Shown here piece after piece: positions 16,447 to 51,592 of a stretch of 64,000 nucleotides of DNA; the stretch's first letter is position 1, and every line of letters starts with the position of its first letter. Origin of the DNA: Ignavibacteria bacterium (lineage in GTDB: Bacteria > Bacteroidota > Ignavibacteria > Kapaibacteriales > UBA4661); the NCBI GenBank assembly GCA_013298775.1, contig JAAFIV010000002.1, forward strand, positions 62,001-126,000. Direction: 5' to 3'. The notes under the pieces are model-generated. The model worked only from the letters and a program-made list of their open reading frames with translations. It made no database searches and was not told where the DNA came from. Both the position numbers and the translations under genes were made by a program.

Positions 16447-16522
16447 TGGGCAGACAACAGTGTCTGTTTGTGCCGAAGCTAGTCTTTATGAGGTAGCGCA
16501 GACACTCTTGTCTGCGCCACAA
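16447..16522. repeat. dispersed CAGACA/TGTCTG repeat
   Basis: An imperfect palindrome of the family built from GGCRCAGACAnnnnTGTCTGYGCC-like halves: the left half is degenerate, the right half is GTAGCGCAGACACTCTTG then TCTGCGCCAC. It lies between the regulator and the kinase. Relatives occur at 17967-18044, 19596-19774, 39557-39640 and 51202-51592. Confidence 0.75.
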
Positions 16523-16580: not shown

Positions 16581-17954
16581 ATGCCCAGAAACTACGCGCC
16601 TTCCAAGCCCATTCGCTATTTGGGAAGTTTTCAAGTAAAAATTATCCTTCGCATACTTTTCCTCACGACAAGCATTGGTGCGGTGTTGTGGGTTTGTACG
16701 CAAACGTCGCTGTACGCAACGATGACCATTCTTATCCTCGCCTGCATCGCTCAAGTGTGGTCGCTCATTCGCTTTGCAGAGCAGACAAATCGCCATTTGA
16801 TACGCTTTTTGGAGTCGGTGAAATACGGCGACACCGTGCAGATGCAATCTGTGGCTCGCTTGGGCGGCTCGTTTGAAGAATTAACAAAAGCATTTACGGC
16901 GGTAGTGCAAGATTTTGAGCGCATTCGCGGCGAAAAAGAGGAGCAATATCTCGCCTTGCAAACTATTCTCCACCACGTATCTATCGGGCTTCTGTCCTTC
17001 GACGACAACGAAATGATAGATTTTATCAACCCCGCAGCCCGCAAACTTCTTGGACTGACGCAAATTCGCACCCTCGCAACACTCAATGTCCACCACAAGC
17101 CGCTTGCCGACGCGCTTCGGAGCATTCCGCAAAATGGAAAATTACTTGTAAAACTCGTTGTCGGCGAAGAAATTCTCCAGCTCGCGCTTGCTTCCACGAC
17201 CTTCCGCCAGCGCGGGCGCGACATCACGCTTATTTCCTTGCAAAACATCGTGAGCGAATTGGAAGAGCAAGAAATTATCGCGTGGCAAAAGCTCATTCGC
17301 GTTCTCACGCATGAGATTATGAACTCCGTCGCGCCAATTACGTCGCTCGCCGAAACAGTATCCACGCTGCTTGCAGAAGATTTGCCCGACGACGAACACG
17401 ACCGCCGCGAACTTTTAAGCGATGTGCGCGATGCCGTTGGAACGATTGCCCGCAGAAGCGCAGGATTACTGGGGTTTGTGGAGAATTACCGCACCCTTTC
17501 GCGCATTCCTGAACCAAATTTCAGCCTCTGCAAAATCGAACCATTGCTGAAAGATTCCGTACGCCTTTTCGAGCAAGAAGCGCGTGAACGCTCGGTTTCG
17601 CTCGAATGCAGCACGGAGCCTCGCACGATGGAAATTCCCGCTGACCGCACGTTGCTGGAACAAGTGATAATCAATCTTGTAAAGAATGCGTTGCAAGCAA
17701 GCACAAAGGGTGGTGTGGTAAAAGCGAAAGCGTTTCAAAGCCCCACAGGGCGCATCATTATTGAGGTTTCAGACAATGGCACAGGAATCGCGCCAGAAGC
17801 GATTGACAAAATTTTTATTCCTTTTTTCACCACAAAGCCCGAAGGCTCTGGGATTGGGCTGTCTTTTGCTCGTCAGGTGTTGCGCAAACATAGTGCGACA
17901 ATAAGTGTCGTTTCTGAGGTTGGCAATGGTACAACGTTTACTATCAAGTTTTGA
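16581..17954 (+). CDS. sensor histidine kinase, partner of the NtrC-class regulator
   Basis: A 457-residue kinase. Two transmembrane helices span about residues 18-60 with little periplasmic sequence between them, so it may sense the membrane itself. A linker and a PAS-like region (about 110-215) lead to the phospho-acceptor motif LTHEIMNSVAPITSL with His244. The ATPase domain has N box (INLVKNALQAS), G1 (VSDNGTGI), F box (IFIPFFTTK) and G2 (GSGIGLSFARQV). It follows the regulator gene on the same strand, separated by a repeat element. The pair should control sigma-54 promoters. Confidence 0.92.
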   Translation: MPRNYAPSKPIRYLGSFQVKIILRILFLTTSIGAVLWVCTQTSLYATMTILILACIAQVWSLIRFAEQTNRHLIRFLESVKYGDTVQMQSVARLGGSFEELTKAFTAVVQDFERIRGEKEEQYLALQTILHHVSIGLLSFDDNEMIDFINPAARKLLGLTQIRTLATLNVHHKPLADALRSIPQNGKLLVKLVVGEEILQLALASTTFRQRGRDITLISLQNIVSELEEQEIIAWQKLIRVLTHEIMNSVAPITSLAETVSTLLAEDLPDDEHDRRELLSDVRDAVGTIARRSAGLLGFVENYRTLSRIPEPNFSLCKIEPLLKDSVRLFEQEARERSVSLECSTEPRTMEIPADRTLLEQVIINLVKNALQASTKGGVVKAKAFQSPTGRIIIEVSDNGTGIAPEAIDKIFIPFFTTKPEGSGIGLSFARQVLRKHSATISVVSEVGNGTTFTIKF

Positions 17955-17966
17955 TGGGCTTTTTTC

Positions 17967-18044
17967 AATAGTGGCACAGACATTCTTGTCTGTGAGAACC
18001 CGCAGCAACGCTCACAAACAAAAATGTCTGTGCCACTAAAGACT
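17967..18044. repeat. dispersed CAGACA/TGTCTG palindrome
   Basis: AGTGGCACAGACATTCTTG on the left pairs with the reverse complement in AATGTCTGTGCCACT on the right. It forms a long hairpin just after the kinase stop and may also act in transcription termination between convergent genes. Confidence 0.8.
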
Positions 18045-18088: not shown

Positions 18089-19798
18089 TTACAACAACAG
18101 AAACATTCCCAAAGCAACCACCACGCAGACCGCACCAATCCAGCGTAAACGCGGATTTTGAAAGAGAAAACTTCCCCAAATACTTGCGCCGCCAGCAACA
18201 AGCAGCAAAAACTCCAAAATGCGAAAATGAAACGGATGCTCTGCTGCTTTTTTCGGAACACCAGAACTCACTACCAGCGCACGGAGACTGGCTTGGCTCT
18301 CGAAGCCGATAGAATCTATGTTGGTGAGGCGCACGAAATATGTTCCTTCGGGAAGCAGCACATTCGCCGTACCGTTTTGGTGAATGGCATTGTGAACAAA
18401 TTCGCTGAACTCCGCATTGGAAGCGACTTCCAGCCTTGTTGTGTAGCCGCCATTGTTCCAGCGAAAAGGCGTTGGATTGGGGTTCGGTGCAATGCGCTCT
18501 TCTGGCTCAAGAAGTTCTGGCTTGCGTGGAAGTGGCACTATTCCTTGTGCGGTGAGGTTATCACCCAAGCCAGCACCACCTACAACAACGCCGAAATCTT
18601 CCCCAATATCCAGATTTTGCCCCGCTCTTGGGTCATCATTCAAAACCTGTACGTTTGCTCTGCCTTGCAAAACAGAAATAATCGACCGCTCTTTTGCGTC
18701 CACCTTCACTTTCGCAGAGGCTTGTGCTGACGCGCTATTGAAGCCGATATGAGAATTTTTCGTGCGTACCGAAAAGGTATCCTGCGCTTTCATTTCACGC
18801 AATTTCACCATCAAATTCCCCTTCGCCAATTCGATGTTTTTCACGGCTTCGCTTGATGCAGCAGAAGATTGTCCGCCCGCAGAAGCAAGGCGTGATGCTG
18901 CTTCAAAGCCATAGACAAACATTGTTGCATTTTCGTCCAAACGCAGGACGCTATTGTTGCGAAAGGTAATGTCCAACCAGGCATTATCACTGGTGTTCAG
19001 GCGAAATGCCTCGTACAATTCATCATTCATTTTGGCTTCGCGCCAATCCTCTTCCCACGCTGATTTTATCTGCACACTCGGCTTTATAGCACTGATGCGG
19101 GCTTCAGGTGGAAGCGGCTTCCCATCTGGGCTGACGAGCAATTTCCCCGTGAGCGCACTTAGCCCGATAATCTCCACGCGGCGATTTTTCGTGCGTCCCT
19201 CTTGTGTCGCATTGTCGGCAATCGGAAACTGCGCACCGTAGCCGCGAGTTCTGATGCGACTTGCAGCAATGCCATTCTCCACCAAAAATGCCCGCACAGA
19301 CTCGGCTCGCTGCAAGGACAACGCCGTATTTTGCGCCTCATTTCCTTGATTGTCCGCGTGTCCACCTATTTCGATGTTCAGCAAATTGCGCTTTGCTAAA
19401 TACTCCACAAGGCGCGTGAATACTTGCTTTTGGCTTGCTTCCAGCTTTGCACTTCCGAGCGAAAAAGCAGCATCGGTGAGCGTGATTTTTTTTCCTGGAC
19501 TGAGATTGAATTGCTCTTGCGCAAATACATGTTGTTCTGAAAAAATGAGCATGAGAACAAGAAATAATGCGACAAGGCTCATATTTGCGCGTCCTGTGGC
19601 GCAGACAGGAGTGTCTGCGCTACCTGCAAAACTTGGCTTCGGTAGCACAGACACTCTTGTCTGTGCCGCTCTCAATGCTGTGTGTGAGTGAGCGCGTCCC
19701 GTGGCGCAGACAAGAGTGTCTGCGCTACCTGCAAAACTTGGCTTCGGTAGCACAGACACTCTTGTCTGTGCCGCTCTGAAAGAAATGAAACGATTCAT
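18089..19798 (-). CDS. OmpA-domain protein with FecR-like domain, repeat-invaded signal region
   Basis: A 569-residue envelope protein. After an odd N-terminus come an OmpA C-terminal peptidoglycan-binding domain (about 95-205; IEIGGHADNQG, AESVRAFLVENGI, GRTKNRRVEI), a FecR-like beta domain (about 245-385; WLDITFRNNSVLRLDENA, AKGNLMVKL), a Pro-rich linker, an extracellular Ig-like segment and two C-terminal hydrophobic helices. The N-terminus reads MNRFISF, then two copies of a repeat-encoded peptide (AAQTRVSVLPKPSF...), then a hydrophobic signal core (SLVALFLVLMLIFS). Export may therefore start from an internal Met near residue 72. It starts 13 bp after a kinase gene stop. Confidence 0.85.
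   Translation of the reverse strand: MNRFISFRAAQTRVSVLPKPSFAGSADTLVCATGRAHSHTALRAAQTRVSVLPKPSFAGSADTPVCATGRANMSLVALFLVLMLIFSEQHVFAQEQFNLSPGKKITLTDAAFSLGSAKLEASQKQVFTRLVEYLAKRNLLNIEIGGHADNQGNEAQNTALSLQRAESVRAFLVENGIAASRIRTRGYGAQFPIADNATQEGRTKNRRVEIIGLSALTGKLLVSPDGKPLPPEARISAIKPSVQIKSAWEEDWREAKMNDELYEAFRLNTSDNAWLDITFRNNSVLRLDENATMFVYGFEAASRLASAGGQSSAASSEAVKNIELAKGNLMVKLREMKAQDTFSVRTKNSHIGFNSASAQASAKVKVDAKERSIISVLQGRANVQVLNDDPRAGQNLDIGEDFGVVVGGAGLGDNLTAQGIVPLPRKPELLEPEERIAPNPNPTPFRWNNGGYTTRLEVASNAEFSEFVHNAIHQNGTANVLLPEGTYFVRLTNIDSIGFESQASLRALVVSSGVPKKAAEHPFHFRILEFLLLVAGGASIWGSFLFQNPRLRWIGAVCVVVALGMFLLL
19596..19774. repeat. two in-frame copies of the CAGACA/TGTCTG repeat
   Basis: Copies at 19596-19669 and 19701-19774 start 105 bp apart, a multiple of three, and are nearly identical. 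Both halves (GTGGCGCAGACA and TGTCTGTGCCGC) are present. They lie inside the coding start of the OmpA-FecR gene and are translated as two near-identical 29-residue blocks. Confidence 0.9.
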
Positions 19799-19810: not shown

Positions 19811-21940
19811 TTAAAGAGGAAGAGTGAACCAAAACCGCGAGCCAGCATCGCGTGTGCTTTCTACGCCAACCGTGCCGCCGTGCTGCAGCGCAATTTCCTT
19901 GACAAACGCCAATCCAAGACCTGTTCCAGCGTTTGTGCGGACACGTGCATCGTCGTCGGCGCGGTAAAATTTTGTGAAAAGTTTCGATTGCGCGCGTTCG
20001 GAAATACCGTAGCCTTCATCGCGTACGGAAAGCTCTATTTCACTGGCTTTGAGGCGAATTTCGATGCACATTTTTTTGCCTTCGTCCGAATATTTCACAG
20101 CATTGGTGAAAAGATTCAAGACCGCTTGCCCCAGCAAATCTGGGTCGCCAAGCACAGGCGGCGTGGTTGCGGGGAAAATGGCATCAATAGAAATATTCTT
20201 TTTTTGTGCAAGTGATGAATTGATTGCAACGACCGAACGCACGATTTCATCAAGGCGGACGGGTATTCTCCGAACTTCTGCTTTGCCCGATTCCATACGG
20301 CTCAAATCCAAAAACTTCGAGATAATTCCTGCCAATTTTTTGCTTTGCGAGGCGATAGTGCGCCCAAATTCTTCCGCCTCTTCTTTCGCCAATTCGCCTT
20401 CGCCAATCAGCTCGGCAAGCCCATTGATGCTGTTGAGCGGCGAGCGGAGTTCGTGCGCGACAATCGAAACCAATTCCGTTTTCATGCGGTCAATTTCCAC
20501 TTCGTGCGTTACGTCGCGCAGCAAGCCCATGAGCGCAAGCACCGCACCATCCTGCTGCACTTTTACGAGCGTTCCGCGTAGCACAAGTTCGCGCACTTCC
20601 CCGCTTCGGCTGAGGCGAAACTCCACAGAGCGCACCATTTCTTGTGTTTCAAGCATATCGCTTGCAATGGTGGTAAAATCATGTTCCGCCAGCACATCAT
20701 CCAGCAAAAGCCCTTCGGAAGCCAGTTCTAAGCCGAACCACTCTGCGCAAATACCGTTCAACAGTTCGATGCGTTTTTCCGCATTCAGCAAAATAATTCC
20801 ATCCTGCGCTTGGCGCACCATCGTTTCGAGCTTGTTACGTTCAGCAATGATGCGGCTTACGTTCAATCGCTCGTATTTTGCAAGTTCTTCGGCAACGGCA
20901 TTTTGCTGAGAAAAAAGCATCGCAAATTCGTCCCTGCGCTCTGGGTTCATTTTCACAGAAAAATCTCGCCGAGCCAGTTTTGATGAGCTTTCCAAGAGTT
21001 CTTGCAAGGGCTTAGAAAGTTCACGCGAGAAAAAAATACCCGCAACGCCAGCAATGAAGCCGCACAGCAGCATCCAAAGAAGAGTGTTTTGCTGAATCTC
21101 GCGCACTCGTTTGTAGGCAATCTCGGTAGGCTCTTCGACAAGAATCACGCTGCGCAAAAGCGGTACAGACAAGGCTGCACCAAGCATTCGCACTCCTTCG
21201 CTCTTCGAGTATTCTCGCAATGTTCCCACGAATGCTGTTTGAGAATATGCTTGATTATTCAGAAATGCTTGTGTCGCTGCACCCTGCTTTTGTGCGGCTT
21301 GGACGGCATTTCGGTTTGAAGAAGCAAGGAGAACGAGCGAATCCGATAACAAGGAAATTCGGTCTGGCGCACCCTGAAACAATCGGCGTGAATCCTGCTC
21401 CACAAGGGCGCACAAATCCTCTGTTTTCACGAGTGCCGCCACGTAACCGATACAGCGATTATTGCTCACAAGCGTCGTGAGAACTGGTATTGCGGGCATG
21501 AGCATTTTTTCTGTAAAAATTGCATCAAGCAGTGAAATTGTCCCAGAACTCTGCGAAATACCAGCATTGATGCGGAGTTTCACAGGAACAGTGCTGCCTT
21601 GCTGCTTCACAACAGCATCAACAATTTCCCCGCGCACATCGTACACGCCAAGTACATCAACATTTTCTGCTTCCGCAAGAAGGCTGCGAACCTGCATCAA
21701 TGCTTGGCTTTCGGCGTTTTCATTCACTAATGTATTTGCTACGTTGCGCAAAAGTTGTGCTTTTTCTTGAATATGAGTATTCACGCGCTCTTGGACACGC
21801 TCTGCTGCAAGAAAGTATTTCTCCTCAGCAAGTTCACGGATGCTGGAAGCCTGTATTTGCGCCATTCCATAGCCAACAATGCCAACAGGAAGGACTGCGG
21901 CTGCGACGAGAGCAAGCGTGATTTTTGTTGAGAATTTCAT
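19811..21940 (-). CDS. membrane sensor histidine kinase (Cache-HAMP-PAS-HisKA)
   Basis: A 709-residue kinase. An N-terminal helix is followed by an extracytoplasmic Cache-like sensor (about 35-270), a second helix (LLWMLLCGFIAGVAGIFF), HAMP (about 305-355), PAS (about 370-475), HisKA with His496 (VAHELRSPLNSI) and an ATPase domain with N box (LNLFTNAVKYS), G1 (VRDEGYGI) and G2 (GTGLGLAFVKEI). No response regulator is adjacent. The OmpA-FecR gene starts 13 bp downstream, so the two are probably one operon in which the envelope protein could modulate the sensor; that link is inference. Confidence 0.93.
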   Translation of the reverse strand: MKFSTKITLALVAAAVLPVGIVGYGMAQIQASSIRELAEEKYFLAAERVQERVNTHIQEKAQLLRNVANTLVNENAESQALMQVRSLLAEAENVDVLGVYDVRGEIVDAVVKQQGSTVPVKLRINAGISQSSGTISLLDAIFTEKMLMPAIPVLTTLVSNNRCIGYVAALVKTEDLCALVEQDSRRLFQGAPDRISLLSDSLVLLASSNRNAVQAAQKQGAATQAFLNNQAYSQTAFVGTLREYSKSEGVRMLGAALSVPLLRSVILVEEPTEIAYKRVREIQQNTLLWMLLCGFIAGVAGIFFSRELSKPLQELLESSSKLARRDFSVKMNPERRDEFAMLFSQQNAVAEELAKYERLNVSRIIAERNKLETMVRQAQDGIILLNAEKRIELLNGICAEWFGLELASEGLLLDDVLAEHDFTTIASDMLETQEMVRSVEFRLSRSGEVRELVLRGTLVKVQQDGAVLALMGLLRDVTHEVEIDRMKTELVSIVAHELRSPLNSINGLAELIGEGELAKEEAEEFGRTIASQSKKLAGIISKFLDLSRMESGKAEVRRIPVRLDEIVRSVVAINSSLAQKKNISIDAIFPATTPPVLGDPDLLGQAVLNLFTNAVKYSDEGKKMCIEIRLKASEIELSVRDEGYGISERAQSKLFTKFYRADDDARVRTNAGTGLGLAFVKEIALQHGGTVGVESTRDAGSRFWFTLPL

Positions 21941-39529: not shown

Positions 39530-39652
39530 AGGACTTTCGCAAAATGCTCGTTTTGTGGCACAGACAAGAGTGTCTGTACTACCGAAGGCTCGTAAAACCT
39601 GCATCATGTGGTAGCGCGTAACACTCCTGTCTGCGCCATTTGCGAAAGTCCT
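39530..39652. mobile_element. MITE-like element with 14-bp terminal inverted repeats
   Basis: AGGACTTTCGCAAA (39530-39543) and TTTGCGAAAGTCCT (39639-39652) are perfect inverted repeats 123 bp end to end. The inside is one copy of the CAGACA/TGTCTG repeat family (GTGGCACAGACAAGAG ... CTCCTGTCTGCGCCA). No transposase is encoded, so movement would need one elsewhere. The right end abuts the remnant of an oxidoreductase gene. Confidence 0.75.
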
Positions 39653-51201: not shown

Positions 51202-51592
51202 ATAGTGGCACAGACATTCTTGTTATCTGCACTGGAGTAGACGGTAGTATGGTCTTTGACAACGAAAGTTTTGGTAGTTCGGTCTTTTGCCGACAATGCC
51301 GTGAAAGTCGCATCAATCCTTCGCCCCCTTGATGAAGGGGGAACGGGGGATTTGGCCGCCTTCGCGTGAGCTTGGGGTGGTGGAGACCGCGCAAAACAGC
51401 AATCCCCCGTTCCCCCTTTATCAAGGGGGCGAATGCGACAAGCTGCAAAGCCATTTTCCATGGACTATCAAAACTCTCATTGTCAAAGAACTCTATGACT
51501 TCTACTCCACTACAGATAACATTCTTGTCTGTGTGTTTTTATAGCCAAAACCCTGCACCAACACTCACAGACAGGAATGTCTATGCCACTTA
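51202..51592. repeat. nested inverted-repeat element, ~390 bp
   Basis: Three layers of inverted repeats. The outermost, AGTGGCACAGACATTCTTG at 51202, faces AATGTCTATGCCACT ending at 51592. Next, ~70-bp arms (about 51207-51276, and the complementary arm at about 51463-51532) share GTTATCTG, TGGAGTAGA, TTTGACAA and GAGAGTTTTGATAGT-like blocks. The core is TTCGCCCCCTTGATGAAGG with GGAACGGGGGATT (51320-51352) against its complement at 51401-51433. No convincing gene lies inside. It fills the gap between the Uma2 gene and the beta-barrel gene. Confidence 0.75.

Follow-up and report, generated by a model that had tools for sequence, protein, structure and literature searches.

We found that an OmpA-FecR envelope protein gene in the stretch of DNA analysed here (the window, 64,000 nucleotides from an Ignavibacteria bacterium) probably carries a mobile repeat within its signal peptide. 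The reading we prefer, at a probability of roughly 0.6, is that a REP doublet inserted behind the start of this gene and was tandemly duplicated, and that translation from ATG 19798 through both copies is tolerated. The inserted element would be a GTAG-type REP doublet, the kind mobilised by RAYT transposases, and a transposase would have moved it to a position just behind the start codon. Duplication in tandem with a 105-nt (35-codon) period would then have allowed the reading frame to survive. Translation most likely still begins at ATG 19798 and would place about 72 residues, with a net charge of about +7 by hand count, ahead of an intact hydrophobic core. A signal peptide could tolerate this extension since the n-region is under little constraint in length and sequence and since the REP in this frame encodes a basic peptide with no stop. 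We take the insertion to be tolerated rather than useful, with the protein presumably translated and exported. The n-region of a signal peptide mainly needs positive charge, and for this reason REP doublets that land near gene starts would be expected to survive between start and core if the frame allows.

The window belongs to genome G000 (5.19 Mb) and was compared with the related genomes G001 to G007. The part of the OmpA-FecR protein from position 19582 onwards matches Pfam OmpA (1.5e-22) and FecR (1.1e-8), and the gene has a dN/dS of 0.084 against its G005 orthologue over 497 codons. The features of the locus, together with the recG loci described below, are given in Table 1.

Table 1. 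Coordinates of the OmpA-FecR locus in the window and of the recG genes that contain a RAYT
Feature	Position	Strand	Remark
OmpA-FecR envelope protein gene	18089..19798	-	569 codons + stop, counted from ATG 19798
ATG start codon, favoured	19796..19798	-	12 nt past kinase stop
REP doublet copy closer to start	19692..19780	-	units 19704-19728 and 19747-19771
REP doublet copy closer to hydrophobic core	19587..19675	-	units 19599-19623 and 19642-19666
Internal ATG, rival start codon	19580..19582	-	residue 73 counting from ATG 19798
Signal-peptide hydrophobic core	19538..19579	-	SLVALFLVLMLIFS, from translation
Histidine kinase gene directly upstream	19811..21940	-	HAMP, HisKA, HATPase_c; upstream in G005 too
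Single unit of GTAG-type REP family	16493..16520	none	outside any long frame
REP pair	17971..18036	none	between converging ends of kinase-like gene (16581-17954) and OmpA-FecR gene
recG with RAYT, L075	G005:C139:5700-9500		
recG with RAYT, L076	G006:C10:38000-41800		
recG with RAYT, L077 and L045	G007:C20 and G007:C58		

The initial annotation described two near-identical in-frame repeat copies ahead of the hydrophobic core, and this was borne out. The direct repeat consists of two 89-nt copies that are 97% identical and spaced 105 nt apart (3 x 35), and the minus strand can be read in frame without a stop from the end of the kinase gene across both copies as far as the core. The interval originally assigned to the feature, 19596-19798, rightly takes in the start codon at 19798, but it truncates the first copy, whose true beginning is at 19587. 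Two 25-nt palindromes in inverted orientation make up each copy, and the units bear a GTAG foot on one strand.

With the unit pattern GTAGCRCAGACANNNNTGTCTGYGC and up to 2 mismatches, G000 (5.19 Mb) gave 460 matches on the forward and 431 on the reverse strand, many sites being counted on both since the unit is near-palindromic; the reversed control pattern gave 0. Chance is thus ruled out for the window repeat, and the claim that it is dispersed and also lies between genes is supported. The unit is a short palindrome with GTAG at its foot (GTAGCGCAGACACTCTTGTCTGCGC and GTAGCACAGACACTCTTGTCTGTGC). Inverted doublets are common: the window gene has 2 inverted pairs, and many clusters of ~70-84 nt were seen in the survey described below. 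Further units of the GTAG-type family or of near relatives occur in the window at 39555-39582, 51205-51232 and 51565-51589. Among G000 and 60 relatives the family was matched in 8 of the 61 genomes, namely 7 out of 8 from the genus and 1 out of 2 from elsewhere in the taxonomic family; no match was found in the 51 genomes sharing only the order. We file the window feature as a GTAG-type REP insertion, built as are the REP doublets described in PMC3733652.

The same REP family flanks a RAYT gene in the congeners G005, G006 and G007. A cognate RAYT was not found in G000 by searches with Pfam PF01797, the L027 protein and NCBIfam NF047646. G000 has two RAYTs (L026, G000:C1, and L027, G000:C8), each embedded in a distinct repeat family of its own, and the L026 RAYT contains an internal TAA. 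Apart from these the searches gave one weak fragment on contig C14 (15.8 bits); REPs of the window family were absent from the 3.1 kb around it.

To place the insertion we compared the window gene with its orthologues. The G005 orthologue is 91% identical; the alignment continues for 6 nt beyond the kinase stop and resumes at the end of the hydrophobic core, where the G005 core (LIFIFSEQHVIAQE) has a similar ending, and between these two aligned stretches both repeats are absent from G005. The REP doublets are therefore an insertion, as the initial annotation had proposed. The REP unit was likewise not found in the corresponding stretch of the G001, G002, G003 and G006 orthologues. The G007 orthologue (L004, G007:C71) has one degenerate unit with 4 mismatches, which sits in a similarly extended N-terminal frame, ~90 codons long, that precedes the mature part. 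The repeat-encoded residues are thus not conserved across the relatives, the intact repeat being present only in G000 among the 7 species compared.

We then surveyed stretches around REP places, picked without regard to gene context, that made up 123 clusters in G000 and 28 in G005; they follow the list order of contigs and matches and hence are a non-random sample. Chance openness is high, with 403 of the 738 frames open across the 123 G000 clusters, which rules out an open frame as proof of coding. A stricter sign was therefore used, namely a coding-like downstream ORF with no ATG, GTG or TTG separating the REP from the hydrophobic core; it leaves a start within the REP itself possible, as the REP holds GTG codons. 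Here "signal peptide" means a hydrophobic core near the N-terminus, judged by eye and with a hydropathy window. Frames that were open through a REP and followed by at least 60 codons numbered 81, and 31 of these had a dicodon score above 0.02, a score trained partly on the same ORFs that it scored. Two of the 31 (0.144 and 0.110) were discarded as likely spurious, so that 25 ORFs in G000 and 4 in G005 were kept.

In fourteen of the 25 G000 ORFs an ATG separates the REP from the protein, which is what ordinary extragenic REPs would show, and by eye these include HrcA-, CysK-, PheT-, GcvT- and LepA-like proteins. Six lack any start codon before the core (L084, L091, L110, L131, L146 and L170). 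The others are the window gene, three ORFs with internal REPs (L109, L114 and L148), and L083, which has only GTG and TTG codons between REP and core and for that reason was moved from sure to ambiguous. The 4 ORFs of G005 comprise one of the strict kind (L174), two with downstream starts and L183, which we rejected as a clear case and count as ambiguous since an ATG lies at the edge of its core.

Orthologue tests covered four of the six strict genes (L091, L110, L170 and L084; the other two are L131 and L146). In L091, a POTRA-domain gene, the N-terminus M(Y/F)xExPLEGxPxxPFA precedes the REP and is common to G005; it is present in looser form in G006, G007, G002 and G003, and no REP was found at this site in any of the five. 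The REP of L091 lies within old coding sequence, because the upstream N-terminus is kept in these REP-free relatives. L110 encodes a lipoprotein by its LTSC motif. Its start is kept (MHYLLFL, MQFLLFF in G005), and the G005 orthologue has the same frame and no REP.

The YfiR-like gene L170 has a REP doublet in G000 (L203, G000:C56) and a different, single unit in G001 (L206, G001:C553). Both fall within the N-terminal reading frame. G006, which has no REP, shares the start seen in G001, and no REP was found in the G004 and G005 orthologues either. This suggests that the gene received separate REP insertions in two species, a single unit in one and a doublet in the other. L084 has a tandem doublet in G000 spaced 102 nt (C31, places 1313 and 1415). 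It was dropped as a clean case since the Met of its G005 orthologue comes after an upstream REP of its own, and ATGR residues in that orthologue resemble, by eye and with no statistic, an eroded REP end. As judged from these comparisons of sequence, REP insertion between start and signal-peptide hydrophobic core is real in this genus, and what the initial annotation described for the window gene is seen in other genes as well.

REPs also lie further inside proteins. In L148 (G000:C23:151941-151968) a Pfam cytochrome b match over residues 132-278 spans a REP at residues 186-195. L109 (G000:C40:11264-11334) is a penicillin-amidase homologue with two Pfam stretches; its REP is at residues 324-347, and the best Pfam stretch begins after it, at residue 417. 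In L114 the REP lies between two coding halves of a protein with no Pfam match.

The main alternative to translation through the repeats is that ATG 19582 is the working start, in which case the REP doublets lie in a leader between the kinase and OmpA-FecR genes and are at most RNA hairpins that alter downstream expression. The Met at 19582 (MSLVALF) aligns by eye with the only candidate start of G002 (MRHFLLIL) and with the second Met of G005 (MRHLVPLF), which agrees with a leader; however, MSLVALF is without the basic residue that relatives carry near their start. Distances from the kinase stop also speak against it. The first in-frame ATG follows that stop by 4 nt in G007, 12 in G000, 14 in G002, 24 in G005, 34 in G001, 44 in G003 and 47 in G006; ATG 19798 fits this range of 4-47 nt in 7 species while ATG 19582, at 228 nt, does not. 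RNA of the window REP region folds unusually stably (-121.5 kcal/mol, z -9.7), because two REP doublets should fold so, and this suits a leader, although it is possible that REP hairpins affect expression under either start. The fourteen surveyed ORFs with an ATG behind the REP point to a leader too, and De Nocera et al. judged many N-terminal REPs extragenic for such downstream ATGs (PMC3733652). Against this stand the other G000 genes that carry a REP before the core with no start codon between. Taken together, the sequences make ATG 19798 the likelier working start, and we regard a leader as rather unlikely.

Two further explanations concern the tandem arrangement itself. The copies could form a regulated or phase-variable device in which recombination of the 105-nt repeats alters n-region length and with it export efficiency, much like the switchable export signal that had been suggested for this gene. 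The periods of 105 nt in the window gene and 102 nt in L084 are both divisible by 3, and loss of a copy would keep the frame, but frame-keeping periods are expected from survival alone and members of the family are scattered across the genome in unrelated settings. Apart from the 105-nt period nothing suggests phase variation, and we hold a switch to be very improbable. The chance that the second copy or the whole insertion was misassembled appears slighter still. G000 is a 95-contig draft and the doublet pair of ~194 nt may exceed a short read; yet the contig, of 239,872 bases, extends well beyond the site on both sides, the copies differ slightly from each other (97% identity), and in-frame REPs occur in other genomes too (L174 of G005 and L206 of G001).

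The RAYT flanked by this REP family in G005, G006 and G007 was found in frame within recG, between DEQHRFGVLQRAELK and MSATPIPRTL. It has no frame of its own; the recG-RAYT frame is otherwise continuous, with 1060 codons in G005 and 997 in G006; in G007 two contigs share it, with the break close to the repeat. Against the NF047646 cut-off of 80 bits the G007:C58 RAYT scores above (95.7) and those of G006 (79.3) and G005 (78.3) just below. The HUH (DHVH) and YIxxNP motifs are intact in all three, and the G006 RAYT aligns to PDB 4er8 (E 0.00058), with the catalytic Tyr 115 counted by hand on the alignment. RAYT identities are 0.47-0.54, against 0.83-0.92 for the RecG C-terminal part, and synonymous sites are saturated. 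In the one computable pair the RAYT dN/dS is 0.17, a rough value consistent with constraint on the recG RAYT.

The insert reads REP-RAYT-REP and leaves no room for an intein splicing domain. No RAYT insert was found in recG of G001 to G004. No further recG scored above the cut-off; the remaining strong hits, whose frames span 1177-1289 codons, may be Mfd. In G000 (L074, G000:C78:61000-64500) the same linker of recG has an in-frame insert with a different palindromic repeat, of the CCTCTCCTTCTGGGAGAGG type; a repeat related to it is present at other loci that were retrieved. The linker has thus taken inserts more than once.

REPs are extragenic by name, and overlap of a REP with the front of an ORF is usually blamed on a wrong start call. 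The relatives place some REPs inside the coding frame, contrary to this view, and REPs held to be extragenic are probably read as protein in several envelope genes. In this light signal peptides resemble a landing zone at which mobile DNA gains cheap entry to proteins, one way for new protein sequence to arise. A RAYT that stays intact within recG would give a testable answer to RAYT persistence, since any imprecise loss would deprive the host of a repair gene. Tentatively, the REP system of this genus may have its home inside host proteins, with the RAYT an in-frame guest in the housekeeping helicase RecG that keeps its catalytic residues despite near-saturated synonymous sites and the REPs repeatedly kept as translated inserts, above all in signal-peptide n-regions, where they would give envelope proteins new and variable N-termini.

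In-frame REPs as such are already known (PMC3733652; Rickettsia palindromic elements, PMC10969869). De Nocera et al. 2013 describe REPs within ORFs in several species, many in DNA repair genes, and some inserted twice in one ORF (PMC3733652). The window family shares with their GTAG REPs the GTAG-footed palindrome, high copy number, inverted doublets and association with RAYT. They doubt most N-terminal cases; here, in contrast, the N-termini upstream of the REP in L091 and L110 are conserved in relatives. The main text of PMC3733652 mentions neither recG nor membrane, and its 2 occurrences of the stem "signal" are unrelated to signal peptides. Searches of open-licence main texts turned up neither REPs within signal peptides nor an in-frame RAYT within recG.

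The Rickettsia palindromic elements (RPEs) of Ogata et al. are dispersed palindromes that lie in frame in unrelated protein genes and are translated (PMC10969869), and the window-family REPs are likewise dispersed palindromes in frame within unrelated genes. RPEs are ~150 bp and encode a conserved peptide (PMC10969869), whereas the window-family doublets are ~75-90 nt and two reading frames are used. R. conorii RPEs are marked by a CGTC tag (PMC3733652), which is absent from the window family, whose foot is GTAG. Unlike RPEs, the window family has a RAYT associated with it, flanked by the same REPs, in relatives of the window genome. That RAYT resembles those of known REPtrons (TnpA_REP, PDB 4er8; PMC6006769, PMC3733652) in its HUH and YIxxNP motifs and in its flanking REPs of the same family in G005, G006 and G007, but differs in lying in frame inside recG with no frame of its own. 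The extended signal peptides of autotransporters (PMC2805444) also have a long N-terminal segment before the core, a likeness of layout and not of kinship; in the OmpA-FecR gene, in contrast, the extension is a dispersed repeat missing from the orthologues.
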